Assembly (NCBI RefSeq): GCF_900111745.1
Contig: NZ_FOIJ01000009.1
Span: 62,001 to 126,000 of the forward strand
Direction: 5' to 3'
Length of the DNA: 64,000 bases
Source: Stigmatella erecta
Lineage (GTDB): Bacteria; Myxococcota; Myxococcia; Myxococcales; Myxococcaceae
The notes below the pieces were generated by a model. It did not search any database. It saw only the letters and a program-made list of their open reading frames with translations, and was not told the DNA's origin. Of the stretch, positions 6,461 to 64,000 are shown in pieces. The first letter of the stretch is position 1, and every line of letters begins with the position of its first letter. Position numbers and translations under genes: made by a program.

Positions 6461-6655
6461 GCTTGCTCCCCCCCGGTCAGCCGTTGAGCCCGCAGCCGGT
6501 GGGGCCGCGGATCATCCACGTGGGAGGCGATAATCGTGTCCGGTGCGGCATGCATCGCGGAGTTCACGAACCCCGGGGAGGGTTGTGTGAAATCACGCAT
6601 GCCTAAGGCCAGCGATGTACCATGCTCCCTCCCTTTTTCGTGGATGGATGGACGC

Positions 6656-7159
6656 ATGCTTCGTACGGCCCTGACTGCACCCTGGTTGGCTCTGTTGTTC
6701 TTGGTTTCCACGGCATGTGCCCATGACGCGGCCCAGGGGACCGCCGCACAGGACGAGGCGGCGCTTCACGAACTCGTGGCGGTTCAGGCCGATGCCTGGA
6801 ACCGGGGCGATGCGGCGGTCTGGTCCAAGGACTTCACCGAAGACGCGACCTTCATCAACATCGTGGGAAGCGTTTTCGAGGGGCGTGCCCAGATCGAGGA
6901 GCGGCACGCCGCCATCTTCGCCACCGTCTTCAAGGGAAGCAAAACCCAGGTGACGGTGCAGAGGATCCTGTTTCCCGAGGCGGGCATCGCCGTGGTGGAT
7001 GCGGTCCACGAGGTGACGGGGCACACCCGGCTTCCTCCGGGAGTGCAGAACACCGAGGCCGGGCTGCTGCGAACCCGGATGCGGTACGTGATGAAGCGGA
7101 CCTCCGGGCAATGGAGGATTGTCGCGGGGCAGAACACGGACGTGAAACCCGCGCCCTGA
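6656..7159 (+). CDS. small lipoprotein with DUF4440/SnoaL-like (NTF2-fold) domain
   Basis: A 167-residue exported protein. The ATG at 6656 is chosen because it begins a clean signal peptide (MLRTALTAPWLALLFLVSTAC) ending at a plausible lipidated Cys; the reading frame is open upstream to 6536, but that extension would bury the signal. The mature part (LVAVQADAWNRGDAAVWSKDFTEDATFINI) is typical of the SgcJ/EcaC/DUF4440 group of NTF2-fold proteins, which form small cavities and sometimes bind or turn over small molecules. No catalytic role can be assigned. It is divergent from asnB across a 195-base gap. Confidence 0.8.
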   Translation: MLRTALTAPWLALLFLVSTACAHDAAQGTAAQDEAALHELVAVQADAWNRGDAAVWSKDFTEDATFINIVGSVFEGRAQIEERHAAIFATVFKGSKTQVTVQRILFPEAGIAVVDAVHEVTGHTRLPPGVQNTEAGLLRTRMRYVMKRTSGQWRIVAGQNTDVKPAP

Positions 7160-7165
7160 GGAAGG

Positions 7166-7205
7166 CCCTGCCTTGCCAGACAGGTCTTCCGTTGACAGGG
7201 CAGGG
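7166..7205 (+). terminator. possible stem-loop terminator
   Basis: CCCTGCC (7166-7172) pairs with GGCAGGG (7199-7205), just after the stop of the DUF4440-like gene. The following bases (GTTGT) are only weakly T-rich and the loop is long, so this is a tentative call. Confidence 0.35.
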
Positions 7206-7281
7206 GTTGTCCTGAAGAAGGTCATCTGGGAGACAGTGCCCCCTGCCGGTGGCTTGGTCTGCTTGGAGATGCGGCAGTCAG

Positions 7282-8877
7282 ATGCGTGGCATGACCAAGC
7301 TTTCTTTGTCCGTGGTGGTGGGTGCTCTCTGTCTTGTCAGTTGCGGTGAGGAGGCACCCCCGCCGGAGACCGTGGATCGCGAAACGCGCGTCAACGGCCA
7401 CATGGAGTCGCTGCGCGCGGACAGCGCGGCGCTCGAGGCTTTCCTCCGGGAGATGCCCAAGGGGGGCGATCTGCACTCCCATACCTCGGGGGCCATCACC
7501 ACCGAGAAGCTCATCCAGTGGGGGGCCGAGGATGGCGCGTGCGTGGATACCTCCACGTACGTGGCCAGCAATCCCTGCGCGAACAACACGGTCCCCCTCG
7601 CCAACGCGATGGGGGACAGCGCTTTCTACGCCCAGGTGCTCGGCGCCTGGTCGATGGAGGGCTTCTCCGGGCCGCTGCTCGATGCGCACCAGCACTTCTT
7701 CGACGCGTTTGGCAAATACGGCGCCGTGCAGACCGCGGCGCGGGGCGATGACATCTTCGCCGACGTCCTGTCCACCGCGGGCCGCAACCGGCAAATCTAC
7801 GTGGAGTTGATGCAGGGATTCGGTGCGGGCACGGGGGGCAACATCGCGATGCGCCTTTTCACCCCGGCCGATCCGTGGGACGCGGCGACGCTGCTGGCCA
7901 AGCGCGAGCAGATCCTCAATGATCCGGCCTTCCGGCCGGCGATCGAGGCCCAGGCCGCCAGCATCGCGGGGTTTCTGAGTGGCGCCCGCCAGCTCATGGG
8001 CTGTGGCACCGCCAACCCCGATCCCGGCTGTGACGTGGAGGTACGGCTGATCGCCTCGGCCAACCGCACGGCGGAGCGGGCCTCCGTGTTCGGCCAGTGG
8101 GTGTATGCCTATGAGCTGGCGCAGGTGGTGCCTGAGATGGTGGGCATCAACCTGGTCTCCCCGGAGGAGAACCCGAAGTCGCTCGCCTTCTACTCCGACG
8201 AGATGTTCGCCCTGGGCACGCTGGATGACTTCAATGACGGCCAGCCTGGCCGCAAGACCGTCCACATCTCCTTGCACGCGGGAGAGCTCATCCCCGAGGT
8301 GTTGCCGCCCGAGGCGCAGGGCCATCTGACCTTCCACATCCGCGAGGCCGTGGAGAAGGCTCACGCGGAGCGCATCGGCCACAGCGTGGACGTCATGCGC
8401 GAGACGGCGGGGGACGGGGCGGAGGACCTTCTGAGGGACATGCACGAGGCGGGGGTGATGGTGGAGATCTGCCTCACGTCGAACCGCGTTCTGCTCGGGG
8501 TCTCGGGCGCCCAGCACCCGCTCTCCAGGTATCTGGAGCAGGAGGTGCCCGTCACCCTGGCGACGGATGATCAGGGCATCCTGCGCGGGTCCATCACCGA
8601 GGAGTACGTCGCCGCCGCCACCGACCAGCGCCTGGACTACAAGACGCTGAAGTACATGGCGCGGGTCAGCCTGCAACACGCCTTCGTCGAGGGCGAGAGC
8701 CTCTGGACGGACCGCACCGCTTACGGGAAGCCGGTGAGCGACTGCGCCCAGGACGCGCTGGGGGCGGCGCAGGTCTCGGCCGCGTGCGAGCGCTACCTCT
8801 CCGCCCACAAGAAGGCCGGGCTCCAGTGGAAGCTGGAGGGCCAGTTGGCTGCCTTCGAGGATGGCATCGTGCAGTGA
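7282..8877 (+). CDS. adenosine deaminase-like metallohydrolase, predicted lipoprotein
   Basis: A protein of about 530 residues of the amidohydrolase superfamily that resembles adenosine deaminases of the ADA2/CECR1 kind. Metal and substrate motifs occur in order: DLHSHTSGAI (HxH), ISLHAGE, RIGHSVD and LATDDQGIL. The N-terminus (MTKLSLSVVVGALCLVSCGEE, with Cys in a lipobox) predicts export and lipid anchoring. The ATG at 7282 has GGAG 13 bases upstream; ATG 7291 is an equally good start, while the GTG at 7249 would spoil the signal. An exported nucleoside deaminase could scavenge purines from lysed prey (inference). Substrate specificity is uncertain. Confidence 0.82.
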   Translation: MRGMTKLSLSVVVGALCLVSCGEEAPPPETVDRETRVNGHMESLRADSAALEAFLREMPKGGDLHSHTSGAITTEKLIQWGAEDGACVDTSTYVASNPCANNTVPLANAMGDSAFYAQVLGAWSMEGFSGPLLDAHQHFFDAFGKYGAVQTAARGDDIFADVLSTAGRNRQIYVELMQGFGAGTGGNIAMRLFTPADPWDAATLLAKREQILNDPAFRPAIEAQAASIAGFLSGARQLMGCGTANPDPGCDVEVRLIASANRTAERASVFGQWVYAYELAQVVPEMVGINLVSPEENPKSLAFYSDEMFALGTLDDFNDGQPGRKTVHISLHAGELIPEVLPPEAQGHLTFHIREAVEKAHAERIGHSVDVMRETAGDGAEDLLRDMHEAGVMVEICLTSNRVLLGVSGAQHPLSRYLEQEVPVTLATDDQGILRGSITEEYVAAATDQRLDYKTLKYMARVSLQHAFVEGESLWTDRTAYGKPVSDCAQDALGAAQVSAACERYLSAHKKAGLQWKLEGQLAAFEDGIVQ

Positions 8878-50458: not shown

Positions 50459-51348
50459 GCACCTTTGATCTGGAGTCCTTTCTCGCCACCCAGCAGGCTC
50501 GCGTCGAGGCCTTGTTGAAGGCCCGGGCCGACCGGCTGGAGCCCGCGGGAACGCCCCCGCGCCTGGCGGAGTCGATGCGCTACTCGCTGCTGGCGGGGGG
50601 CAAGCGCCTGCGGCCGGTGCTGTGCCTGACGTTCGCGGAGGCCACCTCCCGGCAGAGCACCACGCTGGGCCCGGTCGAGGACGCGGCGTGCGCGGTGGAG
50701 TACATCCACACCTACTCGCTGGTGCATGACGACCTGCCGTCCATGGACAACGACGACCTGCGCCGGGGCCGCCCCACCAACCACAAGGTGTATGGCGAGG
50801 GGCTGGCGCTGCTCGCGGGCGACGCGCTCCTGACGGAGGCCTTCACGCTGCTGGGCTCGGGGCCGGAGGCGGTCCGCGGGCTGCTGTGCGGAGAGCTGGC
50901 CCAGGCCGCGGGCGCGGCGGGCATGGTGGGCGGACAGGTGCTGGATGTGGCCGAGGACCGGCCCGCGCACCTGGACTACCTCACGCGCCTTCACCGGATG
51001 AAGACCGGGGCGCTGCTGCGCGCCTCCTGCCGCATGGGCGTGCTGGGCGCCGGGGGCAGCGCGGATGCGCTCGCCCGGGCGACCACCTATGGCGATGCCA
51101 TCGGCCTGGCCTTCCAGATCGCCGACGACATCCTGGACGTGACGGCGACCGCCGAGGCGCTGGGCAAGCCCGTGGGGGCAGACTCGGCCGCGGGCCGCTT
51201 CACCTTCCCGGCGGTGGTGGGCATGGAGGCCTCCCGGAAGATGGCCGCGGACAAGGTGGCCGAGGCGGTGGCCGCCGTGGAGCCGCTGGAAGGGGCGGGG
51301 GGGCCGCTGGCGGCGCTCGCCCGCTACGTGGTGGAGCGGAGGTCGTGA
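50455..51348 (+). CDS. ispA: polyprenyl diphosphate synthase, probably farnesyl diphosphate synthase
   Basis: Condenses IPP with DMAPP/GPP to FPP. A 297-residue protein; the first Asp-rich motif sits in YSLVHDDLPSMDNDDLRRG, very like E. coli IspA with the same two-residue insertion, and the second is QIADDILD. This similarity favours a C15 product, though chain length cannot be proved. The product would feed squalene synthase at 61698. It overlaps the response regulator and dxs genes by 4 bases each. Confidence 0.93.
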   Translation: MSTFDLESFLATQQARVEALLKARADRLEPAGTPPRLAESMRYSLLAGGKRLRPVLCLTFAEATSRQSTTLGPVEDAACAVEYIHTYSLVHDDLPSMDNDDLRRGRPTNHKVYGEGLALLAGDALLTEAFTLLGSGPEAVRGLLCGELAQAAGAAGMVGGQVLDVAEDRPAHLDYLTRLHRMKTGALLRASCRMGVLGAGGSADALARATTYGDAIGLAFQIADDILDVTATAEALGKPVGADSAAGRFTFPAVVGMEASRKMAADKVAEAVAAVEPLEGAGGPLAALARYVVERRS

Positions 51349-53096
51349 CGGGGCTCCTCCCGCGAATTCACTCGCCCGCGGACGTCCGGAGTCTTCCCGA
51401 GTCCGACCTGCCGCGGCTGTGCGAGGAGCTCCGGGAGGAGATCATCACCGTGTGTGGCCGCGTGGGCGGCCACCTGGGCGCCTCCCTGGGGGCCGTGGAG
51501 CTGGTGGTAGGACTGCACCGGGTGTTCCACTCCCCCCAGGACGCGCTGCTCTTCGATGTGGGGCACCAGGCCTATGCGCACAAGCTGCTCACGGGGCGGC
51601 GCGAGCGCATGGGCACGCTCCGGCAGGCCGGGGGCATCGCGCCCTTCCTGGATCCGCGCGAGAGCCCCCTGGACGCGCTCGCCGCAGGCCACTCCTGCAC
51701 CGCCGTCTCCGCCGCGCTGGGCATGCTCCAGGGCCGGCGCCAGCTGGGCCGCACCGGGCACGTGGTGGCCGTGCTGGGCGATGGGGCGCTCACCGGTGGG
51801 CTGTCCTTCGAGGGACTGAACAACGCGGGCGGCTCGCACCTGCCGCTGGTGGTGCTGCTCAACGACAACCAGATGTCCATCTCGGCCAACGTGGGCGCCA
51901 TTCCGGCGCTCCTGCGCACCCGGCAGGCCCGCGCCTTCTTCGAGGCCCTGGGCTTCACCTACCTGGGGCCGGTGGATGGGCATGACCTGGGCGCGCTGCT
52001 GCCGGTGCTGCGCGAGGCGCGCCAGTCCTCCCGGCCGGTGGTGGTGCACGCGATGACCCAGAAGGGCCGCGGCTTTCCCCCCGCGGAGGCGGACACGCAG
52101 ACGCGAGGCCACGCCATGGGCCCCTATGAGTGGCGGGCTGGGAAGCTCGTGCGCTCGCGCGGCGGCCAGCGCACCTTCAGCGAGGCCTTCGCCGCCGCCC
52201 TGGATGACGCCATGGCCGTGGACCCTCGCGTGGTGGTGGTGACGCCCGCCATGCTGGAGGGCTCCGCGCTGGTGGAGCTGAAGGCCCGCTATCCGGACCG
52301 CGTGCACGACGTGGGCATCGCCGAGCAGCACGCCGTCACCTTCTGCGCGGGGCTGGCGGCCGCGGGGGCGCGGCCCGTGTGCGCCATCTACTCCACCTTT
52401 CTTCAGCGCGCGTTCGACCAGGTGGTCCACGACGTGTGCCTGCCCGGGCTGCCCGTCCTCTTCGCGGTGGACCGGGCGGGGCTCGTGGGGGCGGACGGCG
52501 CCACGCACCAGGGGACGTACGACGTCTCATCCCTCCGGGCGCTGCCGGGGCTGTCCTTGATGGCGCCGGTGGTGGGGGAGGACCTGGCGCCCATGCTGGC
52601 CAACGCGCTCGCGGCGCCCGGGCCCAGCGTCATCCGCTTTCCCCGGGGCACCTTGCCCGCGCTGCCGCCGGAGCTGCGCGCGGCCGGGACGGGCTCCGCG
52701 CAGGGGGCCCGCTGGTTGCGCCGGGCCGAGTCGCCGCGGCTCACCCTGGTGGCCCTGGGGCCGCTGGTCCTGGCCGCGCTGGAGGCCGCCCAAGGCGAGC
52801 CCGGCTGGAGCGTGCTGGATGCGCGCTGGGTGAGCCCGCTGGATGTGCCCGCCCTGCTGGAGGCCGCGGCGTGTGGGCACGTGGTGGTGGTGGAGGAGGG
52901 GACCGTGCGCGGCGGGCTGGGCAGCGCGGTGCTGGAGCTCTACGCCATGCACGGGCTCTCCCCGCGCGTGCGGCTGATGGGCCTGCCCGATGCCTTCGTG
53001 CCCCATGGGGATGCGCGGACCCAGCGCTCGGAGCTGGGGCTGGATGCCGCGGGGATGCGGCAGGCCGGGAGGGCCCTGCTGGAGATGGGACGATGA
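51345..53096 (+). CDS. dxs: 1-deoxy-D-xylulose-5-phosphate synthase
   Basis: First step of the MEP isoprenoid pathway, using thiamine diphosphate to join pyruvate and glyceraldehyde 3-phosphate. The start is GTG 51345 (GTGA overlap with ispA). The 583-residue protein has GGHLGASLGAVELVVGLH, the TPP motif GDGALTGGLSFEGLNNAG, NDNQMSIS and AEQHAVTFCAGLAAAG. It is about 35 residues shorter than E. coli Dxs, with loops trimmed, but all domains are present. Confidence 0.95.
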   Translation: MTGLLPRIHSPADVRSLPESDLPRLCEELREEIITVCGRVGGHLGASLGAVELVVGLHRVFHSPQDALLFDVGHQAYAHKLLTGRRERMGTLRQAGGIAPFLDPRESPLDALAAGHSCTAVSAALGMLQGRRQLGRTGHVVAVLGDGALTGGLSFEGLNNAGGSHLPLVVLLNDNQMSISANVGAIPALLRTRQARAFFEALGFTYLGPVDGHDLGALLPVLREARQSSRPVVVHAMTQKGRGFPPAEADTQTRGHAMGPYEWRAGKLVRSRGGQRTFSEAFAAALDDAMAVDPRVVVVTPAMLEGSALVELKARYPDRVHDVGIAEQHAVTFCAGLAAAGARPVCAIYSTFLQRAFDQVVHDVCLPGLPVLFAVDRAGLVGADGATHQGTYDVSSLRALPGLSLMAPVVGEDLAPMLANALAAPGPSVIRFPRGTLPALPPELRAAGTGSAQGARWLRRAESPRLTLVALGPLVLAALEAAQGEPGWSVLDARWVSPLDVPALLEAAACGHVVVVEEGTVRGGLGSAVLELYAMHGLSPRVRLMGLPDAFVPHGDARTQRSELGLDAAGMRQAGRALLEMGR

Positions 53097-53833
53097 AGCC
53101 TCGCAAGGAGCGCCTGGACGTGCTGGTGGTGGAGCGGGGGCTGGCCGAGTCCCGCACGAAGGCGCAGGCGCTCATCCTCGCCGGCCAGGTGGTGGTGGGC
53201 GACCAGCGCGTGGACAAGCCCGGGGCGCTGGTGCCCGTGGAGGCCGAGATGCGCCTCAAGGGCGAGGTGCTCCCCTACGTCTCGCGCGGTGGCCTCAAGC
53301 TCAAGGCGGCCATCGATCGCTTCGGGCTGGATGTGCGCGGCAAGGTGGGCGCGGACATTGGCGCCAGCACCGGAGGCTTCACCGACTGCCTGCTCCAGGA
53401 AGGCGCGGTGCGCGTGCACGCCATCGACGTGGGGTACGGCCAGCTCCACGAGAAGTTGCGGACCGATGCGCGGGTGCGCTCGCGCGAGCGCGTCAACGCG
53501 CGCTACCTCACCGCCGAGGACTTGCCCGAGAAGGCCGGCGTCATCGTCATCGACGTGAGCTTCATCTCGCTCACCCAGGTGCTGCCCTCCGTGCTGCCGT
53601 TCCTGGAGAAGGGCGGGCTGCTCGTGGCCCTGGTGAAGCCTCAGTTCGAGGTGGGGCGGGAGAACATCGGCAAGGGCGGCGTGGTGCGGGACACGGAAGC
53701 CCGCCAGTCGGCCATCGACGCGGTGGTGGCCTTTGCCCGGGAGCAGGGGCTCACGGTGCGCGGGCTGATGGACTGCCCCGTGCCTGGGCCCGCGGGCAAC
53801 GTGGAAGCGCTCCTCGTCGCGCACAGCGATTGA
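53093..53833 (+). CDS. tlyA: TlyA family rRNA methyltransferase/hemolysin
   Basis: A 246-residue protein with an N-terminal S4 RNA-binding domain (LDVLVVERGLAESRTKAQAL) and an FtsJ-like methyltransferase domain with the SAM motif GADIGASTGGFTDCLLQEGA and VIDVSFISLTQVLP. TlyA methylates 2'-OH of ribose in rRNA; the hemolysin name is historical. ATG 53093 overlaps dxs by 4 bases, ending the co-translated ispA-dxs-tlyA block. Confidence 0.93.
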   Translation: MKPRKERLDVLVVERGLAESRTKAQALILAGQVVVGDQRVDKPGALVPVEAEMRLKGEVLPYVSRGGLKLKAAIDRFGLDVRGKVGADIGASTGGFTDCLLQEGAVRVHAIDVGYGQLHEKLRTDARVRSRERVNARYLTAEDLPEKAGVIVIDVSFISLTQVLPSVLPFLEKGGLLVALVKPQFEVGRENIGKGGVVRDTEARQSAIDAVVAFAREQGLTVRGLMDCPVPGPAGNVEALLVAHSD

Positions 53834-53909
53834 CTAATCCCTCTCAGGCACTACCCTCCGGCGGCGGTTGACAGCCCGTCTCACAGCCGTTCCGCCTTGG
53901 AGGGAATAC

Positions 53910-54896
53910 ATGCGCTTCGTGAAGAACTTGTTCAGGGCTTGTGCCATGTCCGTGCTCATGGTGTCGGCGGTTTCCTCGGCGGCCGATGTCAAGATTGGCT
54001 TCGTCGTCAAACAGCCCGAGGAGCCCTGGTTCCAGGACGAGTGGAAGTTCGCGGACGTGGCGGCGAAGGAGAAGGGCTTCACCCTGGTGAAGATTGGCGC
54101 CGAGGACGGCGAGAAGGCGCTGTCCGCCATCGACAACCTGGGGGCGCAGGGCGCTCAGGGCGTCATCATCTGCACGCCGGACGTGAAGCTGGGGCCGGGC
54201 CTGGTGGCGCGCGCCACCTCCAACCAGCTCAAGCTGATGACGGTGGATGACCGGCTGGTGAACAGCAAGGGCAAGCCGCTGGAGAACGTGCCGCACATGG
54301 GCATCTCCGCCACCAAGATTGGCGAGGCCGTGGGGCAGGCCATCGTGGAGCAGATCAAGGCGCGCGGCTGGAACATGAAGGACGTGGGTGCCATCCGCGT
54401 CTCGTATGATCAGCTTCCCACCGCGAAGGATCGCGTCGAGGGCGCCATCGCCGTGCTGAAGCAGAACGGCTTCGTGGCCTCGAACATCTTCGATGCGCCC
54501 CAGAGCAAGACGGACACCGAGGCTGCGCTCAATGCCGCCAGCGTGGTGCTCAACAAGAACGCCGGCATCAAGAAGTGGGTGGCCTTTGGCCTCAATGACG
54601 AGGCGGTGCTCGGCGCCGTCCGGGCCTCGGAGGCCGCGGGCTTGAAGGCCGCGGATGTCGTCGCGGTGGGCATCGGCGGTTCGGACTCGGCCATCAACGA
54701 GTTCAAGAAGCCCAGCCCCACGGGCTTCTACGGCAGCATCATCATCTCGCCCAAGCGCCACGGCTACGAGACGGCCCTGAACATGTACAACTGGGTGACG
54801 GCGAACAAGGAGCCGGAGAAGCTCATCCTCACCTCCGGCAAGCTGGCCACGCGCGAGTCCTACCAGGCGGTGCGCAAGGAGCTGGGCCTCCAGTAA
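53910..54896 (+). CDS. araF: sugar ABC transporter substrate-binding protein (L-arabinose type)
   Basis: A 328-residue periplasmic binding protein with signal peptide MRFVKNLFRACAMSVLMVSA and cleavage near SSA-AD. The mature start DVKIGFVVKQPEEPWFQDEW is characteristic of AraF, as is MGISATKIGEAVGQAIVEQI. GGAGGG lies 6 bases before ATG 53910; an upstream frame at 53868 is not needed. It is the first gene of a complete three-gene importer. L-arabinose is the family substrate but galactose-type sugars cannot be excluded. Confidence 0.9.
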   Translation: MRFVKNLFRACAMSVLMVSAVSSAADVKIGFVVKQPEEPWFQDEWKFADVAAKEKGFTLVKIGAEDGEKALSAIDNLGAQGAQGVIICTPDVKLGPGLVARATSNQLKLMTVDDRLVNSKGKPLENVPHMGISATKIGEAVGQAIVEQIKARGWNMKDVGAIRVSYDQLPTAKDRVEGAIAVLKQNGFVASNIFDAPQSKTDTEAALNAASVVLNKNAGIKKWVAFGLNDEAVLGAVRASEAAGLKAADVVAVGIGGSDSAINEFKKPSPTGFYGSIIISPKRHGYETALNMYNWVTANKEPEKLILTSGKLATRESYQAVRKELGLQ

Positions 54897-54917
54897 GCAC
54901 GGACTTGTGGGAGGCAC

Positions 54918-56417
54918 ATGGCACCGTTTCTCGAGTTCACGAACATCACCAAGAGCTTCCCCGGCGTCCGGGCCCTCAAGGAGCTGAGCTTCTCGGTGCC
55001 GCCCGGACGGGTCATTGGTCTGCTGGGCGAGAACGGTGCGGGCAAGTCCACGCTCATCAAGATTCTCGGGGGGGATTACACCCCCGAGACGGGTGAGCTG
55101 CGCATCGGGGGAAAGGCCCACCGCTTTTCCTCCACGCGCGATTCGATCGCCGCCGGGGTGACGGTCGTCCACCAGGAGCTTCAGCTCGTGCCGGAGCTGA
55201 CGGTGGCCGAGAACCTCATGCTGGGCCGCTTCCCGTCCCGCTTCGGGGTCGTCCGCTACGGGGAGCTGTTCGCCAAGGTCGGCGCGGTGCTGCGCGAGGC
55301 GGGCATCGAGGTGGATCCCCGGGCCAAGGTCGCGGACCTGTCCCTGGGCACCCGGCAGATGGTGGAGATCGCCAAGGCGGCCATCTTCGACGCCTCGGTC
55401 ATCGCCCTGGATGAGCCCACCTCCTCGCTCTCCGCGCACGAGAGCGAGGTGCTCTTCCGGCTGGTGAACCGGCTGCGCGCGGCCGGCAAGGTCATCCTCT
55501 ATGTCTCGCACCGGCTGGATGAGATCTTCCGCCTGTGTGATGGCTGCGTCGTGCTGCGCGATGGCCGGCTCGTGGCCCAGCACGACACCCTGGAGGGGCT
55601 GACGCGCGAGACGCTGGTGCGCGAGATGGTGGGCCGCGAGATTCAAGACATCTGGGGCTGGCGGCCCCGGACCCCGGGGGCGGTGCGGCTCTCCGTGTCG
55701 GGGCTGGAGGGCTCGCGCCTGACGGCCCCTACGGGCTTCGAGGTGCGCGCCGGGGAGATCCTGGGCCTTTTCGGGCTGGTGGGCGCGGGCCGCAGCGAGC
55801 TGGCGCGGCTGCTGTATGGCGCGGACCCGCGCGCCGCGGGCGAGGTGCGCATCGATGGGGTTCCGGTGCGGATCCACCACCCGCGGCAAGCGGTGCGCGC
55901 GGGCCTGGTGCTGTGCCCGGAGGACCGCAAGGCCGACGGCATCCTCCAGGGCCAGCCGGTGGAGGCGAACATCGCCATCTCCTCGCGCCGCCACTTCTCG
56001 CCCTTCGGCATCCTGAACACGCGGAGGGAAGGGGAGATGGCCGACCGCTTCATCCAGCGGCTCGGGGTGCGCACGCCTTCGCGCGAGCAGGCCATCGAGA
56101 ACCTGTCGGGCGGCAACCAGCAGAAGGTCATCCTTTCGCGCTGGCTGTCCGAGGAGGGCATCAAGGTCTTCATCGTGGATGAGCCCACGCGCGGCATCGA
56201 CGTGGGGGCCAAGAGTGAAATCTACGAGGTGCTCTATGGCCTGGCGGAGCAGGGCATCGCGCTCATCGTCATCTCCAGCGAGCTGCCCGAGGTGATGGGC
56301 ATCAGCGACCGCATCGCGGTGATGTGCGGCGGCCGCATCGCCGCGGAGTTTCAACGCCCCGGCTTCTCCGAGGAGAAGATCCTGGCGGCAGCGCTGCCCG
56401 ACCGGACGGCGGCTTGA
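54918..56417 (+). CDS. araG: sugar ABC transporter ATP-binding protein (AraG-like)
   Basis: A 499-residue double ABC ATPase. The first cassette has GLLGENGAGKSTLIKIL, LSLGTRQMVEIAKA and VIALDEPTSSL; the second has the usual degenerate Walker A GLVGAGRSEL with LSGGNQQKVILSRWL and IVDEPTRGIDVGAKSEI. This arrangement is specific to monosaccharide importers. It follows araF by 21 bases and precedes the permease gene by 11. Confidence 0.93.
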   Translation: MAPFLEFTNITKSFPGVRALKELSFSVPPGRVIGLLGENGAGKSTLIKILGGDYTPETGELRIGGKAHRFSSTRDSIAAGVTVVHQELQLVPELTVAENLMLGRFPSRFGVVRYGELFAKVGAVLREAGIEVDPRAKVADLSLGTRQMVEIAKAAIFDASVIALDEPTSSLSAHESEVLFRLVNRLRAAGKVILYVSHRLDEIFRLCDGCVVLRDGRLVAQHDTLEGLTRETLVREMVGREIQDIWGWRPRTPGAVRLSVSGLEGSRLTAPTGFEVRAGEILGLFGLVGAGRSELARLLYGADPRAAGEVRIDGVPVRIHHPRQAVRAGLVLCPEDRKADGILQGQPVEANIAISSRRHFSPFGILNTRREGEMADRFIQRLGVRTPSREQAIENLSGGNQQKVILSRWLSEEGIKVFIVDEPTRGIDVGAKSEIYEVLYGLAEQGIALIVISSELPEVMGISDRIAVMCGGRIAAEFQRPGFSEEKILAAALPDRTAA

Positions 56418-56428
56418 GAGGATTGGGA

Positions 56429-57379
56429 ATGGATCGCTTGAAAAGGGCCGTGCTCGGTGAACAGGGGCTCGTCATCCTGTTCCTGCTGGCCCTCGGCATC
56501 GTGTGCCTCACCGTGCCCAGCTTCATGACGCAGCGGAACATCCTCGGCCTGCTCCAGTCCGTGGTGACCATTGGCATCGTCGCCTGCACGATGATGCTGT
56601 GTCTGGCCTCGCGGGACTTCGATCTGTCCGTGGGCTCCACGGTGGCCTTCGCCGGCATGGTCGCGGTGATGGTGTCCAACAGCACCGAGAACCTGCTCCT
56701 GGGCATCCTGGCGGCCTTGGCGGCCGGCGTCGTGGTGGGCGCCATCAACGGCGTGGTGATTGCCAAGCTGCGCATCAACGCCCTCATCACCACGCTGGCC
56801 ACGATGCAGATCGTCCGCGGCTCGGCGCTGATTGCCTCCGACGGCCGCGCGGTGGGCGTGGATGATGAGGCCTACTTCGACATCGCGCTGACGGCGCCGC
56901 TGGGCATTCCGGTGCCGGTGCTCGTCATGGTGCTCTGCTTCGCCCTCTTTGGCTTCGTGCTCAACCGCACCGTCTTCGGGCGCAACACGCTGGCAATTGG
57001 CGGCAACCCGGATGCCTCGCGCCTCGCGGGCGTCAACGTGGGCTCCATCCGCATCTGGATCTTCACGCTCCAGGGCCTGCTGTGCGCGGTGGCGGGGATT
57101 CTCTTGTCCTCGCGCATTACCAGCGGCCAGCCGAATGCTGCTCAGGGACTGGAGCTGTCGGTCATTTCCGCCTGCGTGCTGGGCGGCGTGTCCCTGGCGG
57201 GCGGACGCGCGGCGATCTCCGGCGTGCTGGTGGGCGTGCTCATCATGGGCATCGCGGAGAACGTGATGAACCTGATGAACATCCAGGCGTTCTACCAGTA
57301 CGTGGTGCGCGGGGTGATTCTCCTGCTCGCCGTGCTGCTCGACAACCTGCGCACCCGTGCGACGGGCCGACGGCTCTAA
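56429..57379 (+). CDS. araH: sugar ABC transporter permease (AraH-like)
   Basis: A 316-residue integral membrane protein with about 8-10 spans. Characteristic segments are ASRDFDLSVGSTVAFAGMVA, GAINGVVIAKLRINALITTL, and the terminal GVLIMGIAENVMNLMNIQAF. It forms the channel for AraF/AraG. ATG 56429 lies 11 bases after araG. No regulator or arabinose catabolic gene is in the window. Confidence 0.92.
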   Translation: MDRLKRAVLGEQGLVILFLLALGIVCLTVPSFMTQRNILGLLQSVVTIGIVACTMMLCLASRDFDLSVGSTVAFAGMVAVMVSNSTENLLLGILAALAAGVVVGAINGVVIAKLRINALITTLATMQIVRGSALIASDGRAVGVDDEAYFDIALTAPLGIPVPVLVMVLCFALFGFVLNRTVFGRNTLAIGGNPDASRLAGVNVGSIRIWIFTLQGLLCAVAGILLSSRITSGQPNAAQGLELSVISACVLGGVSLAGGRAAISGVLVGVLIMGIAENVMNLMNIQAFYQYVVRGVILLLAVLLDNLRTRATGRRL

Positions 57380-57410: not shown

Positions 57411-59210
57411 TTATGGCCATCGTCGAACAGCCAAGGCGCTCCACTCGCGCGGCAAGCGCGCTTCCCCGGGTTTCGAACCCTCATGCTTGATTGTGAGGCC
57501 CGTCTGGTCCCCCAGCACGAAGCACACCGGGACACGGCGCCCATTCGGCAGGAGAGCTTCGGTATAGCGGCCCAAGACCGCCTCCGGTCCCTCCTTCGTG
57601 AGGCCTTCTGTCCAGAGTTGCCCGTACAGGAGGGTGCTGTCAGGGAGCGGGCCTGTCCACTCGTACTTCACTACGCGGCTGACGACGGGGCCGGCGCTGT
57701 AGGTGCCCACTTGTTGGTTTGTGCCTGGCTGGTTGATGTCGATGACGACGCGGTAGCCAGCACCCTTGAATAAGTTCATTGCTTCCATGCTTCGGACAGT
57801 GTCTTGGGGGCAGTCCTCGGGCAGGGGCCGCACTTGGGCCGCAGGGCAGCCAACGCTGAAGGCGGCGCACAACCAAGCTGCGGCGGCCCTGGCGGGCCAG
57901 GAGTTGCTAAGGGGGAACATGAGCGGGCTTCCTTTCTCGGATGCAGCGTGGGCAATCGAGTCTGCGGGAGAGCGCCACTCCCACCACGCAGTGAAAAGGG
58001 CAAGGCCCAGCAGGAGCGGGCCCGCCACGAGGGCGATTCGTCGCCACCACTTCTTGCGTCGGGCGGCTTTCGCATTGACGGTCTCCAACTCCGTCGCCAT
58101 CTCCTTGAAAGTGGCAGAAACCTGCTCAAAGAGTTGCTCGTTGGAGAGTTCTTCCGCTTTTTGCTTTTGAACCTTCTTGACCCGGCGATCCGTCTCCTGC
58201 CTGTGGAGGCGGATCTCCTCCACCTCGTCTTGGGTCATGGGGGCAGGCCCTTCGGGAGACAGCACCAGCCGTACCTTCCAGGCCTTCTTGGTGCGCTCCT
58301 TGGCTGCATCCCACAGCGTTTGGTGGAGCGCCTCGGCACTTTCGTAGCGGTACTCCGGCAACTTCTCGAGCAATCGCATGACAATGCGGCTGAGCGGCTC
58401 AGGCACCTCTGGGTTCATGCGGTGGGGCGCGCGAGGGATGACGGTTTGAATCGCCGTCAGCAACTCCTCCGCCGTCAGCCGAGGATCGAAGGGCCAGCAG
58501 TTCGTGAGTGCCTCGTACATGAAGACGCCCAACTGGTAGAGGTCGCCCGCCACACCCACTTCGAACCGGGCCCCCTGCTTCCATGTGCCCTCGCGGAGGA
58601 AGGTGACGCACTCGGGGGGCAGCAAGTGCGGCGTTCCTGGAGCCAGGCCCACCGTGAGGGTGGATGCACCTGGCAGCCACGCGCTGCCCAGATCCACCAT
58701 CGTCGGCTTGCCGTCCGGGCCAACGATGACGTGCTCACTCTTGAAGTCCCGGATGAGGATGCGGCGGCGGTGCAAGCGGCCCACGGCGCGCACCACTTCG
58801 AGGAAGATGTCCACGAGCTGGGCTGCGTTGGGCCGGGTGCGCTCGCGCCAGTCATGGAAGGGCTCGCCGGCAACATAGTCGGTGACGATGTAGATGTAGC
58901 CTTTGGTGGAGTGGGGCCACCTGTCCACGGCGCGCATGTTGGGCAGGCCGGGGAGGCTGGTGTTGGCCATCAGGGTGGCGGCCTCGTGGCGCATCCGCCC
59001 ATCCACCTGCCGCTGCTCCAGCGCCTTCTCGGGTGTGTCCGGGGTTAGCTCCGAGGCAGGCCTGATCGCCATCTTCAGCGTGAATAACTCCCCATCGCGC
59101 TCGGCCTTGAATGCGTGGCCGAAGTTGCCGCTGCCCAATGACTCGATAATGCGCCAGGGGCCTACCATGTCTCCCGGCTTGAGGTGGTCCGGGTGAAGGG
59201 CGTCCGTCAT
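57411..59210 (-). CDS. degenerate Ser/Thr kinase fused to a lipoprotein-like tail
   Basis: A 599-residue protein. The kinase fold keeps the glycine loop LGSGNFGHAF (25-34), Lys46, Glu76 and catalytic Asp155, but the loop reads IRDFKSEH (HRD His is Ile153 and the metal-binding Asn is His160) and DFG is DLG (173-175). Activity may be weak or absent. A coiled-coil region (about 325-385) and a span at 392-410 follow. From Met431 the sequence looks like a separate lipoprotein (MFPLSNSWPARAAAAW, then FSVGC), and an internal ribosome site AAAGGAAG lies 7 bases before that ATG (57918-57920). It is downstream of the DUF2381 gene by 13 bases. Confidence 0.85.
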   Translation of the reverse strand: MTDALHPDHLKPGDMVGPWRIIESLGSGNFGHAFKAERDGELFTLKMAIRPASELTPDTPEKALEQRQVDGRMRHEAATLMANTSLPGLPNMRAVDRWPHSTKGYIYIVTDYVAGEPFHDWRERTRPNAAQLVDIFLEVVRAVGRLHRRRILIRDFKSEHVIVGPDGKPTMVDLGSAWLPGASTLTVGLAPGTPHLLPPECVTFLREGTWKQGARFEVGVAGDLYQLGVFMYEALTNCWPFDPRLTAEELLTAIQTVIPRAPHRMNPEVPEPLSRIVMRLLEKLPEYRYESAEALHQTLWDAAKERTKKAWKVRLVLSPEGPAPMTQDEVEEIRLHRQETDRRVKKVQKQKAEELSNEQLFEQVSATFKEMATELETVNAKAARRKKWWRRIALVAGPLLLGLALFTAWWEWRSPADSIAHAASEKGSPLMFPLSNSWPARAAAAWLCAAFSVGCPAAQVRPLPEDCPQDTVRSMEAMNLFKGAGYRVVIDINQPGTNQQVGTYSAGPVVSRVVKYEWTGPLPDSTLLYGQLWTEGLTKEGPEAVLGRYTEALLPNGRRVPVCFVLGDQTGLTIKHEGSKPGEARLPREWSALAVRRWP

Positions 59211-59223
59211 GGGCGGGGGGGTC

Positions 59224-60108
59224 CTACTGCGCCAGAAGATTGAAGGAAAGGCGCCGCTGGACGCTGGCGTCCTCCAGTTCCACGCTGAATGCTCTTCCGG
59301 TAGACCAGGGGGGCGCCTTCATCTCCAGCACCACCAGCCCCGCTTCGCCCGGCGCCAGCTGTTCCTGCTTCGTGTGCACGGAGAACACCTCCACCGGAGC
59401 ACCTGTCGCGCTGGTGATGCGTGCCTTCCCCGCCACCCAGCGCTTCTGGCCCGGAAGGTTGCGCAGCCGGATAGCTATCAATGTCGAGGACGCGCCTTCG
59501 TAACCAATGCTCTCCACCACAGTCAAGCCGCTCCCGTTTGCTGTGGCCTGCGTGATGAAGAACTCCAAGGGATTCATCTTCTTACCAAGCCACTCGGAGA
59601 GAACGAGCCCGGCGGGACCGCTTTCCGCGTACCGAGTCTTGAGTTCCTCCAACTCTGCTTCCTTCTGAGTGAGGGCCGCGAGCAGAGCCTCGGGGGTGTT
59701 CGCCCGCCTATCGACCTCCACCTTGCCGTCCATCACGTCCGCCTTGGAGACGACGGCTAGAACGGCCTTTGTGGGCAGAGCCCTGTCTTTAAATCCGACC
59801 TGCATGATGAGCCGCTCACCCGGACCCAAGTCCGTGAAGGGCTCAATCGAGAGGATGCGGTCGCCAACATCCACCCATTTGAAGCGGGTTCGATCCATCA
59901 CGAGGCTGTCCCGGTCCAGGGGCCCGTTGAAGGCCACCGTGGTGAGGTTGCCCGCAGCCACGTACAACTCGGGGATGGGCTCCGTAGGTGTTGTGGGCAG
60001 CGCGGCGCGCCGATCCTGGCGCTGCCGGGCGGGGGGCTGGGACTGGGCGGTGGCCCTGTTCGCCACCAGCAGAAGGGTGAGGAGTAGCCACCTCGTGAGT
60101 AGTACCAA
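59224..60108 (-). CDS. DUF2381 family secreted protein
   Basis: A 294-residue exported protein of a myxobacteria-specific family (DUF2381/TIGR02268). It starts at TTG 60106-60108, with GGAGG about 10 bases upstream, and has a signal peptide ending near ANRATA. The beta-rich mature part includes ELYVAAGNLTTVAFNGPLDR, LSIEPFTDLGPGERLIMQVG and the C-terminal VELEDASVQRRLSFNLLAQ. The function is unknown. It lies 13 bases upstream of the degenerate kinase gene on the same strand; such pairing hints that the two act together at the envelope (inference). Confidence 0.8.
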   Translation of the reverse strand: MVLLTRWLLLTLLLVANRATAQSQPPARQRQDRRAALPTTPTEPIPELYVAAGNLTTVAFNGPLDRDSLVMDRTRFKWVDVGDRILSIEPFTDLGPGERLIMQVGFKDRALPTKAVLAVVSKADVMDGKVEVDRRANTPEALLAALTQKEAELEELKTRYAESGPAGLVLSEWLGKKMNPLEFFITQATANGSGLTVVESIGYEGASSTLIAIRLRNLPGQKRWVAGKARITSATGAPVEVFSVHTKQEQLAPGEAGLVVLEMKAPPWSTGRAFSVELEDASVQRRLSFNLLAQ

Positions 60109-60259: not shown

Positions 60260-61639
60260 TTACCGGCGCCACTCCCGGCCGGCGGAGAAGGCCGTGAAGG
60301 CGTCCTCCAGGCCTCCCCGTGCCGAGCCCTGCAGATGGGGAAGGGCGGAGGTCACCAGGCCCGTGCCCGCGCGCATCAGCGTCTCGAAGTCCCGGCGCTG
60401 GTGGCTGAAGGCCTCCGACGTCAGCGCGCCGATGCCGTAGCCCACCACGCGCATGTACTCGCGCGCCATGACCCACATGCGCGTCTCGCGCGTGGACAGC
60501 AGCTCCATGGAGTTGCGCCCGCCCGTGGTGCTCTCCTCCCAATAGCGGAGCAGTCCCGTCCGCAACGCGTCCATGTCCTCGCGCTGGATGGAGAACGCCT
60601 GATAGAGCGCAGAAGCCATGGCGATGCGCGTGCGCTGGGCGGACCGGCGGCGCTGCACGTACCGGCGCAGGGCGCGCGGCACGTTGCCCAGGCTCTCGCG
60701 CAGTGACTGCTGGAGCGCCATGGCGTCGCTGATACCCGAGGCCATCCCACTGGCGCTCACTGGGTGGCAGCACCCCGCCGCGTCTCCCACGAGCACCACC
60801 CGGCCCTGCGTCACCCGGTGGGGCAGGCGCGTGTCATTCGAGGCCATCCGCGGTGTTTCCCGCTCCAGCGCTTCCAGGATGGCGCCCCGCAGGGGCTGGG
60901 GCACGCCGTTGAGAAGCTCCGGGGAGGCATGCAGTTGCTGTGCGGTCGAGCCCAGGGGGATGTCCACCATCACGCGCGCCACGCCCTCCTCGATGGCGTA
61001 GGCGAGCACCGGGGCATTGCCCCCGATGAAGATGTGCCCATGGCTCGCGTGGGGCAGGGCGCGCGCGTCCACCGTCACCCCCACCATGCTGGAGAGCCGC
61101 TCGTACCGCTCCTGGATGCCCAGGAGCTTGCGGACGAACGAGTTGCGCCCATCCGCCGCCACCAGCAGAGGTGTGCGCACCTGCCGCCGTTCCCCACCGC
61201 AGACCGCCGTGAACTCGACGCCCTCGGCATCGTTGCGGTGCAGCTCGGTGAGCCGCGTCTTGCGCCACACGGTGACGCGCGGCAGCCGCTCGACGGCCTC
61301 CAGCAGGCTCGACACGAAACGCGCGTGTTCCAGCGACAGCCCCCGGCTCGAACCGTTGTAGGTCAGCTGCGTGGTGCGCTGCTCGCGCCGGGTGTCCACC
61401 ACGGCGAAGCCCAGGACAGGCTGGCCCGCGCAGGCCTCCAGCGCGGACCCGAATCCCAGCGTGCGCAAGTCTTCCACGCCTGGCGGGTGGAGCAGCTCTC
61501 CGGCGAGCTGCTTGCCGCGGTCTTGCCCGGCATCCACAAGAAGAACTGAATGGCCCAATTGTGACAATGCCGCCGCGCTTGCACAGCCCGCCGGGCCTGC
61601 CCCGATGATGACCACGTCCGTATTCAAGAAGCTCCCCAT
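60260..61639 (-). CDS. squalene monooxygenase (squalene epoxidase)
   Basis: Converts squalene to 2,3-oxidosqualene with FAD, O2 and a reductase. A 459-residue flavoprotein: VIIGAGPAGCASA (10-22) binds ADP of FAD, GELLHPPGVEDLRTLGFG aligns with the GExLQPGG block of squalene epoxidases, and VVLVGDAAGCCHPVSASGMA is the GD/substrate motif. Geranylgeranyl reductases and other FAD monooxygenases are related, but the divergent squalene synthase and the oxidosqualene cyclase make epoxidase the best reading. No N-terminal membrane helix is seen; the C-terminus may associate with membrane. Oxygen is required, so sterol synthesis here is aerobic. Confidence 0.85.
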   Translation of the reverse strand: MGSFLNTDVVIIGAGPAGCASAAALSQLGHSVLLVDAGQDRGKQLAGELLHPPGVEDLRTLGFGSALEACAGQPVLGFAVVDTRREQRTTQLTYNGSSRGLSLEHARFVSSLLEAVERLPRVTVWRKTRLTELHRNDAEGVEFTAVCGGERRQVRTPLLVAADGRNSFVRKLLGIQERYERLSSMVGVTVDARALPHASHGHIFIGGNAPVLAYAIEEGVARVMVDIPLGSTAQQLHASPELLNGVPQPLRGAILEALERETPRMASNDTRLPHRVTQGRVVLVGDAAGCCHPVSASGMASGISDAMALQQSLRESLGNVPRALRRYVQRRRSAQRTRIAMASALYQAFSIQREDMDALRTGLLRYWEESTTGGRNSMELLSTRETRMWVMAREYMRVVGYGIGALTSEAFSHQRRDFETLMRAGTGLVTSALPHLQGSARGGLEDAFTAFSAGREWRR

Positions 61640-61697
61640 AGCCGCTGCTCACTGCTATAGCGCAATTTTGCCCGTTCTTCTCCACGGGCGGCACATC

Positions 61698-62747
61698 ATG
61701 AGCAACCCTGAAGCCTTCTGCCGCGAGGCGCTGCCCGAGGTCTCTCGGACCTTCGCCCTCAACATCCCGGTTCTCCCCGAGCCGTTGGATCTCGTTGTTA
61801 CCGTGGGTTACCTCCTCTGCCGGATCGTCGATACGATCGAGGACGAGGCAACCTGCAGCGCCGCGCAGCGCGCCCAGCTCCTCTCGCGCTTCGCCCACTT
61901 CGTGGAACTCCCCGAGGGGTGGCGCCACGAGGTGCCGCGCTATATCGCCGAGGTGGAGCAGTGGCTGCGGCCCTCCGTGCCGGCGCCCGAGGCGCGGCTG
62001 CTGCGCCGCACGGGCACCGTGCTGGAGACCTTCGCGGCCCTGCCCCGGTGGACCCAGCCTCCCATCGTGCGCTGTGTGCGCGCCATGGCCGACGGCATGG
62101 GTGATGTGAGCCGCCAGCTCGAGCTGGTCCCGCCCGCCAGTGGCCTGAAGGATCTGGAGGCTACATTGACCTACTGCTACTACGTGGCGGGCACGGTCGG
62201 AGAAATGCTGACGGATCTTTTCATTGGGTTTGCGCCTCAGCTCGCGCCCCAGGGAGAGACGCTCCGGGCGCTGGCCCCCGCGTTCGGACGGGCCCTGCAG
62301 CTCATCAACATCCTCAAGGATGTCCGCGAGGATTTGGAGCGAGGCTATTGCTGGCTTCCCCAGACCCTCATGTCGGCGCATGGGCTCACCGCGCCCACGC
62401 TCTTGAAGCCTGAGAATCGGGGACGGGCGGTGGCGATGCACAACGAGCTCATCGCCGTGGCCCGGCGCGAGGCGGACATCTCGCTGGAGTACGCGCTGCG
62501 CCTGCCCGTGGAGGAGCCGGGCCTGCGGCTGTTCTGTCTGTTGCCCCTGTTCTTCGCGGTGCTTACGCTCTCGCGGCTGGAGAACAACCCCGCCGTGTTC
62601 GAGCCCACGCCGGTGAAGATCAGCCGCGCCTCCGTGCAGGAGATCATCCTGCTTACCCAGCGCAACGTCGCGTCGGATCCGGCGCTGCGGGCGATCTACC
62701 AGCAATGCCTGTCAGGAGCCCTCCAGCCGGAAGCCCTGACGTCATGA
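61698..62747 (+). CDS. squalene synthase
   Basis: Joins two FPP molecules to squalene via presqualene diphosphate. A 349-residue trans-isoprenyl synthase: SRTFALNIPVLP near residue 16, first Asp-rich motif DTIEDE (45-50), YCYYVAGTVGEMLTDLF and second motif DVRED (208-212) match squalene synthases more than phytoene synthases. The start ATG 61698 is used because earlier in-frame codons run into the divergent squalene monooxygenase gene. The stop overlaps the cyclase ATG (ATGA), so the two are co-translated. A phytoene-synthase role is possible but the context opposes it. Confidence 0.87.
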   Translation: MSNPEAFCREALPEVSRTFALNIPVLPEPLDLVVTVGYLLCRIVDTIEDEATCSAAQRAQLLSRFAHFVELPEGWRHEVPRYIAEVEQWLRPSVPAPEARLLRRTGTVLETFAALPRWTQPPIVRCVRAMADGMGDVSRQLELVPPASGLKDLEATLTYCYYVAGTVGEMLTDLFIGFAPQLAPQGETLRALAPAFGRALQLINILKDVREDLERGYCWLPQTLMSAHGLTAPTLLKPENRGRAVAMHNELIAVARREADISLEYALRLPVEEPGLRLFCLLPLFFAVLTLSRLENNPAVFEPTPVKISRASVQEIILLTQRNVASDPALRAIYQQCLSGALQPEALTS

Positions 62748-64000
62748 GCGCCACCGCCGAGGTTCGCACTCCCCGGTCCGAGCCTGTCATTCAGCGCGGG
62801 TTGGAGGTGCTGGCCTCGACCCAGGACGCGGAGGGCTCGTGGTACGGGGACTACGGCGGGCCGCAGTTCCTCATCCCCATCTATGTCGCCGGACTGCACG
62901 TGATGGGGCGTGTCCCGGAGCCTGCTCAGCGCGAGGGGCTCGTGGCGTACCTGCGCCGCCACCAGAACGCCGATGGGGGCTGGGGACTGGATGTCGAGTC
63001 GCCCAGCCAGGTGTTCACCTCGGTGCTCAACTACGTGGCCCTCCGGCTCATGGGGGTGGCGGAGGACGACCCGAGGCTGAGAAGGGCCCGGCAGTGGTTC
63101 CTGCCCCGGGGCGGCGCGCTGGCCAGTGGCGCGTGGGGGAAGATCATCCTCGCGCTCTTGGGGCTGTACGAGTACCGCGGCCTGCAGCCGGTGCCCCCGG
63201 AGCTGTGGCTCCTGCCCGAGTCGCTGCCCGTCCATCCGTCCCGGCTCTGGTGCCATTGCCGCATGGTGTACCTGCCCATGAGCTGGCTCTATGGGCGCAA
63301 GGCCCGGGCCCCCGAGTCGCCGCTGCTCGCCGCCCTCCGGCGGGAGATCTTCGACGGGGATTACGCGCAGGTGGACTGGACGGCCGCGCGCGAGCGCGTG
63401 TCGCCGACGGATGTCTATACGCCGCGCACGGTGTGGCTCAAGGCCGCCAACCAGCTCATGCTGGGCTATGAGCGGGTGGCGGGGAAGCAGCTCCGGGAGC
63501 GCGCGCTTGGCTTCGCGCTGGAGCAGATCCGCGCCGAGGACGAGGCGACGCACTACATCTGCATCGGCCCCATCAACAAAGTGCTCAACATGGTGGTGTG
63601 GCACTTCGTCAACCCGGAGGGGCCCGAGGTGCGCGCCCACCTGGAGCGGCTGCCGGACTACTTCTACGAGGCGGCTGACGGCATCAAGATGAACGGCTAC
63701 AACTCCTCGGAGTTGTGGGACACGGCCTTCGCCGTCCAGGCGGTGGTGGCCACTGGCGCCTCGGAGGCCACCCGGCCCATGCTGGCGGAGGCCGCCCGGT
63801 TCATCGAGGCCAACCAGGTGCTCGAGGACACGCGCGAGCCCGCGCGCTTCTACCGCCACCCCAGCAAGGGTGGCTGGCCCTTCAGTACGCGAGAGCATGG
63901 CTGGCCCATCAGCGACTGCACGGCGGAGGGGCTCAAGGCCTGTCTCGCCCTGGAGCCCCTGGGGCTCAACCGCGTGCCCGAGGCCCGGCTTCAGGACGCG
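62744..64000 (+). CDS. oxidosqualene cyclase, cycloartenol-synthase type (3' end outside window)
   Basis: Cyclises 2,3-oxidosqualene to a protosterol. 419 residues are visible and the frame is still open at base 64000; roughly a third is missing. It has a QW repeat (QNADGGWGLDV), the eukaryote-like blocks LWCHCRMVYLPMSWLYG and YICIGPINKVLNMVVW, and the catalytic motif DCTAE at 391-395 instead of the DDTA of squalene-hopene cyclases. Three product-determining positions are Tyr319 (GYNSSELWDT), His385 and Ile389 (HGWPISDCTAE), the combination of plant cycloartenol synthases; lanosterol synthases have Thr, Cys/Gln and Val. Cycloartenol is therefore predicted (inference from known residues). Confidence 0.9.
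   Translation, partial: MSATAEVRTPRSEPVIQRGLEVLASTQDAEGSWYGDYGGPQFLIPIYVAGLHVMGRVPEPAQREGLVAYLRRHQNADGGWGLDVESPSQVFTSVLNYVALRLMGVAEDDPRLRRARQWFLPRGGALASGAWGKIILALLGLYEYRGLQPVPPELWLLPESLPVHPSRLWCHCRMVYLPMSWLYGRKARAPESPLLAALRREIFDGDYAQVDWTAARERVSPTDVYTPRTVWLKAANQLMLGYERVAGKQLRERALGFALEQIRAEDEATHYICIGPINKVLNMVVWHFVNPEGPEVRAHLERLPDYFYEAADGIKMNGYNSSELWDTAFAVQAVVATGASEATRPMLAEAARFIEANQVLEDTREPARFYRHPSKGGWPFSTREHGWPISDCTAEGLKACLALEPLGLNRVPEARLQDA

Follow-up and report, generated by a model that had tools for sequence, protein, structure and literature searches.

A Hanks-type kinase gene of Stigmatella erecta that probably contains a separately started lipoprotein gene in its own reading frame

The DNA analysed here, referred to below as the window, is a 64,000-nucleotide stretch of the Stigmatella erecta genome (assembly GCF_900111745.1, contig NZ_FOIJ01000009.1, positions 62,001 to 126,000). 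Its reverse strand, on which the kinase gene, its parts and the DUF2381 gene upstream all lie, carries an ORF of 599 amino acids at positions 57411–59210, with no internal stop across the 599 codons. The ORF encodes a protein kinase domain (residues 21–297, 58320–59150), a transmembrane (TM) segment, TM1 (about residues 392–410, 57981–58037), which also appears as a hydrophobic segment in relatives, a linker (residues 411–430, 57921–57980) and a lipoprotein-like tail. Upstream of the kinase lies a DUF2381/TIGR02268 gene (59224–60108; PF09544, E = 2.4e-49; TIGR02268, E = 7.2e-43), the stop codon of which is separated from the kinase ATG by 13 nt. By eye, the N-terminus of its product is hydrophobic. 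The neighbouring regions at 50886–57379 and 60260–64000, judged by eye, contain genes that we take to be those for 1-deoxyxylulose-5-phosphate synthase, a TlyA-like methyltransferase and isoprenoid/squalene metabolism. A sugar ABC transporter was also recognised by eye among the neighbours in the window, and its permease matches PF02653.

The tail begins with a putative internal start codon in the kinase frame. The first-pass annotation had pointed to Met431 (ATG, 57918–57920) as the opening of a 169-residue lipoprotein-like segment with a Cys in the motif FSVGC, and to a ribosome-binding sequence 7 nt upstream of it; translation of the ORF and inspection of the DNA bear out both. The sequence AAAGGAAG is found at 57928–57935, 7 nt from the ATG. 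The AAAGGA within it, the putative internal Shine–Dalgarno (SD) sequence, lies in the 3′ half of the linker and corresponds to codons Lys426–Gly427 (57930–57935), and the AAGGA core (57930–57934) is spaced from the ATG by 9 nt. The nested ORF runs from 57920 to 57411 including the stop codon, and its 169-codon coding part covers 57414–57920. It would encode a pro-lipoprotein with a predicted type II signal peptide (residues 431–454, 57849–57920), a lipobox Cys (Cys455 of the long ORF, residue 25 of the nested ORF; 57846–57848) and a mature domain of 145 amino acids (57414–57848) with two more conserved cysteines, Cys467 and Cys563.

Relatives were collected by their tails. The search with the window tail gave matches in 54 of 144 genomes; when a 40-row alignment was used to search 145 genomes of the order, 64 matched, the window's genome being counted in both. 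All tail-bearing genomes belong to one family, and they represent 8 of 55 genera in the first search and 8 of 46 in the second. The named relatives that were found number three, on contigs of Hyalangium versicolor. The window's genome has at least 16 tail matches, one of them weak, and nine of them are fused to a kinase; for some genomes, such copy numbers are lower bounds. Loci taken from 48 genomes gave 156 distinct tails, of which 136 have a kinase match within the same ORF; among the remaining 20 are several from damaged copies or from the ends of contigs. Two sets of fused ORFs were used for counting. The first is an alignment of 74 rows, comprising 75 distinct fused ORFs minus L045, a copy in which a deletion cuts both kinase and tail; L039 and L045 are rearranged copies. 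The second set, of 132 ORFs, includes all 74 aligned ones and consists of the 136 fused ORFs minus one with a low tail score and minus L045, L175 and L188, where the search pattern found no lipobox Cys. Four loci with a kinase split by a frameshift (L038, L040, L042 and L043) were retained in the counts.

The kinase domain scores 68 bits against PF00069 (E = 1.1e-18), well above the cut-off of 31.7, as expected of a Hanks-type Ser/Thr kinase, and Lys46, Asp155 (the HRD Asp) and Asp173 (the DFG Asp) are all present. The catalytic loop of the window kinase, IRDFKSEH, has neither the HRD His, replaced by Ile153, nor the catalytic Asn, replaced by His160, both of which belong to the Hanks-type pattern. 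Residue 160 is Asn in 53 of the 74 aligned ORFs and His in 17, and residue 153 is Ile in 17 (the window being counted in each 17). These changes in the catalytic loop possibly alter the activity of the window kinase, so we assign it to the domain family and leave its activity as uncertain. The model for PASTA kinases, NF033483, matches over residues 81–411 only, with E = 1.6e-27 and 96.7 bits against a curated cut-off of 450, and the window tail has no Pfam PASTA match; the protein does not qualify as a PASTA kinase.

The short product reads as a lipoprotein precursor with Cys455 as the lipobox Cys. It has Arg441 followed by a hydrophobic stretch, in keeping with the n-region and h-region of a signal peptide, and FSVGC fits, by inspection, the PROSITE-like lipoprotein pattern. 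The whole pattern fits 103 of the 132 internal products and fails in 29. All 132 have G, A or S immediately before the lipobox Cys, and at least one Lys or Arg stands ahead of the hydrophobic stretch in 122, with none in the other 10. Cys455, Cys467 and Cys563 are each present in 74/74 aligned fused ORFs. This invariance was counted on the 74 fused rows, as the rows of a second alignment were partly chosen by the Cys; the invariance of Met1 in that second alignment is an artefact of chosen starts with the first GTG read as M. Three invariant cysteines would suit an oxidising compartment.

The tail belongs to no named family in the databases searched. Pfam gave no family for the window tail or for 40 tails (the latter up to E = 0.01), and the one NCBIfam match to the tail (E = 0.16) is far below the cut-off. 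A profile search of solved structures returned three kringle chains at E = 0.29, which we regard as chance, and a kringle identity was rejected. An AlphaFold2 model of the tail computed with four sequences has a mean pLDDT of 34.5.

The DNA around the internal start is conserved at the level of codons. Among the 74 aligned fused ORFs, the codon in the Met431 column is GTG in 66, ATG in 7 and CTC in one, which has an ATG one codon earlier; in relatives the residue is thus mostly Val, not Met. Five and four codons upstream of the start, Lys426 is encoded by AAA in 60 of 68 Lys rows, against a fraction of at most 0.13 in nine other conserved Lys columns, and Gly427 by GGA in 61 of 61 Gly rows, against at most 0.27 in 38 other Gly columns. 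Over the entire length of the same ORFs, AAA accounts for 13.5% of the codons for Lys and GGA for 14.5% of those for Gly. Rows with other residues have AGA (5) or GAG (1) at position 426, and GAA (9), GAG (3) or GAC (1) at position 427. A conserved SD sequence and start codon inside an ORF, as expected of genes with in-frame internal initiation, are therefore present in this family.

The codon pattern is retained when close relatives are removed. In 44 representatives sharing less than 80% identity there are 31 AAA, 34 GGA, 39 GTG and 4 ATG codons at the respective positions, with control columns at or below 0.14 (Lys) and 0.32 (Gly), and the pattern persists in 28 representatives below 70%. 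The 15 representatives below 60% have AAA in 9 and AAG in 4, GGA in 8 and GAA or GAG in 6, and GTG in 14 and ATG in one (control columns at most 0.33 for Lys and 0.45 for Gly). Among the nine below 50%, GGA occurs in 4 and does not exceed the top control column (0.83). In a subfamily with the motif xVKRxP, which overlaps the 74 ORFs in part, the Val is encoded by GTG in 26 of 26 members, preceded by AAGGAA in 17 and AAAGAA in 9, and more distant members have GGAGAAGGA-like stretches followed by ATG. The start codon and SD are thus kept in fused relatives despite differing neighbouring sequence. The codon bias, calculated for 559 ten-residue segments, peaks in those starting at residues 418–420. 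The most biased single column of 517 assessed is that of residue 412 (ACA in 29 of 30 Thr rows), with 427 and 426 next; as this top column lies away from the SD, another influence at the DNA level is at work nearby. Residues 407–413 of the kinase ORF (57972–57992) form a second patch of odd codon conservation in relatives.

The strength of the SD and the structure of the mRNA were assessed in the 132 ORFs. Used as a stand-alone test of each ORF, the duplex energy with the anti-SD is weak: just 13 ORFs lack an equal or stronger in-frame ATG/GTG elsewhere, and p = 0.05 against synonymous shuffles is reached in one (median p = 0.31). Taken together, the sites do differ from controls. The best SD energy is −6 or lower in 61% of the 132 segments before the Cys vs. 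25% of 660 control segments, and an SD motif score of at least 6 was obtained for 108/132 internal starts vs. 45/396 controls, for which the selection rule was identical; the motif was derived from this kinase–lipoprotein family and applied to both. Three of the 132 internal starts have a poor SD motif (score 4). The predicted mRNA structure is weaker around the internal start, where the mean MFE of 40-nt segments changes from about −12 to −4.6; the MFE at internal starts is −7.0 vs. −10.6 for synonymous shuffles (z = +1.21), with controls at z = −0.30. The window's own AUG lies in an unpaired stretch, and the fold around it is ordinary (z = 0.62). Conservation across relatives exceeds chance, and the site in the window, judged alone, is unremarkable.

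A hydrophobic TM segment of 19 residues (mean hydropathy of at least 1.6) is found ahead of the internal start in 128 of the 132 relatives. The linker between this segment and the start occurs in 36 different lengths, the shortest being 9 and the longest 77 residues. The 4488 linker codons contain no stop in the coding frame, which in part follows from counting fused ORFs, and 96 and 30 stops in the other two forward frames. The GC3 of the linker is 0.72 vs. 0.85 for the kinase, so codon selection in the linker looks weaker. Of the loci where the strand of the tail also carries a kinase match, within the tail ORF or ahead of it, 136 have the two in frame and 4 out of frame (L032, L033, L044 and L122), and random linker lengths would be expected to put about two thirds of loci out of frame. 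It therefore appears from these frames that the long kinase form is also under selection. The SD and start remain in three of the out-of-frame loci (L033, L044 and L122); in L032 the very next codon after the GTG is TAG. At L036 and L037 (L195), in two genomes, a TM stub seems by eye to continue in frame into the lipoprotein, a kinase match being absent, and at L036/L195 this arrangement is preceded by a DUF2381 gene.

Homologues of the tail also occur as free-standing genes. In the window's genome, three loci (L189, L190 and L191) have tail homologues placed directly after DUF2381 genes with no kinase between. L189 has two tail-family genes in tandem (6358–7405) after a DUF2381 gene (PF09544, E = 6.4e-80), the homologue at L190 was matched by phmmer, and the DUF2381 gene at L191 matches PF09544 with E = 5.4e-80. 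These lipoproteins resemble the window tail in being homologous by the tail profile and in adjoining a DUF2381 gene, and differ from it in having an ORF of their own and no kinase. The simplest history, we infer, would be a DUF2381–lipoprotein pair joined by an incoming kinase. Ancestrally, a separate lipoprotein gene would have followed the DUF2381 gene; a kinase gene would then have come between the two, with its frame running through the lipoprotein gene, which would retain its own start inside the kinase frame. The first-pass annotation had offered loss of a stop codon between two genes as one explanation of the long ORF. Since free-standing homologues exist, gene fusion is plausible as ancestry; a recent stop-codon loss in the window's genome as the sole explanation is ruled out, as the fusion is family-wide (136 of 156 distinct tails).

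The arrangement is best explained, with good confidence, as a nested in-frame gene, in which selection maintains two products of one ORF: the membrane kinase, and a lipoprotein that has its own start and the same sequence as the kinase tail. This reading follows from the conservation of the SD and the start codon, the weak mRNA structure, the retention of the lipobox Cys and the open frame, and the keeping of start and SD codons in fused relatives lends support to the earlier suggestion that one ORF yields two products. That two products are actually translated, along with their lipidation, membrane topology, ancestry and function, is inferred. The first-pass annotation had held that a tail always fused in homologues, with no internal start used, would speak against two products; the first of these points holds for most tails, whereas the internal start has been kept across relatives.

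The alternative that holds up best is that the tail exists solely as the end of the long kinase. The second hydrophobic stretch would then be an element of the membrane or linker part, and the DNA resembling an SD would play no role in translation. The presence of 136 of 156 distinct tails in an ORF with a kinase match, the TM segment before the tail in 128 of 132 and the unexceptional SD energy of single ORFs all agree with this view. It leaves unexplained, however, GGA in 61 of 61 and AAA in 60 of 68 rows, the GTG/ATG column, the dip in mRNA structure and the SD and start surviving in L033, L044 and L122, and we consider it unlikely. Conservation of the junction DNA might instead reflect gene conversion or recombination between paralogues, or some DNA element other than a ribosome site. 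Genomes with up to at least 25 scored tail matches, the position of residue 412 (ACA in 29/30) as the most biased column and rearranged copies such as L039 and L045 are compatible with such processes. Nevertheless, the SD and start codons are still kept among 15 representatives below 60% identity, divergent subfamilies that encode other residues keep a purine-rich stretch before ATG/GTG, and such processes do not predict the weak mRNA structure, which makes this explanation very improbable. There is just as little to be said for proteolysis, that is, for a short lipoprotein cut from the long protein at the internal lipobox with no new translation start: within the long form the lipobox Cys is indeed conserved, but proteolysis would not select synonymous codons, SD or ATG/GTG, and with TM1 upstream the orientation of the lipobox would be wrong for processing by standard signal peptidase II.

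Under the nested-gene reading, translation from the first start would give the kinase, in which a cytoplasmic kinase domain is followed by one TM helix, the linker and the domain of the tail. Initiation at a second site in the same frame, at AAGGA, 9 nt and ATG/GTG, would produce only the tail, with a lipoprotein signal peptide at its N-terminus. After export and lipidation on Cys455, the short product would be held in the envelope by its anchor, where the kinase-borne and free copies of the tail domain could meet. The free lipoprotein may be a partner, a ligand carrier or a competitor of the kinase sensor, along with the DUF2381 protein. Tentatively, a large family of such two-in-one genes for signalling may exist in myxobacteria: the sensor domain of the membrane kinase would also be made as a free lipoprotein, the shared DNA would fix the identity of the two, and this would serve matched recognition between the sensor and an envelope lipoprotein. 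Such recognition might take the form of a built-in competitor or of a self-recognition pair diversified over many paralogues.

If the reading is correct, annotation of the long ORF only would miss the short products, and nine fused ORFs are present in the genome of the window alone. The idea of two products is unusually easy to test, given the GTG start in most aligned members. As this GTG (66 of 74) reads as Val in the kinase, a single synonymous change from GTG to GTC would abolish the start and leave the kinase unaltered.

Small subunits related to Cas11b are encoded by separate genes in other systems. Cas11b itself, according to an excerpt of PMC11899642, is made by internal in-frame translation from cas8b with a possible SD. 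Like the window's putative short form, it is a C-terminal part made again from a start inside a larger ORF; as far as that excerpt describes it, it serves a CRISPR interference complex, whereas the window's short form would be exported and lipidated. Literature searches for DUF2381 and TIGR02268 returned no papers, and those on ribosome profiling or translation starts in Myxococcus returned papers off topic by title and the opening of the abstract. Among the literature matches listed, judged on partial texts, there was no nested kinase–lipoprotein gene, and the match on internal translation concerned clpB in Leptospira. PASTA-type and other transmembrane Hanks-type kinases share with the window protein a kinase domain, one TM segment and a C-terminal domain. 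The window tail differs from that of PASTA-type kinases in having no PASTA domain or named family and in probably being encoded also as a nested lipoprotein. Excerpts of two sources describe bacterial proteins with shorter products from internal or alternative starts, namely the N-terminal proteoforms CheA-S and IF2 beta (PMC11005335) and HBP35 (PMC2907840). These resemble the proposed lipoprotein in being shorter products, some of them differently located. In those excerpts, the short forms lose a signal or stay cytoplasmic, whereas the short form encoded in the window would gain a signal peptide exposed at its N-terminus. If so, one reading frame would give the same domain two fates, attached to a kinase and free as a lipoprotein, and, unlike the nested and truncated products compared here from partial texts, the shorter form would be the one that gains a targeting signal.
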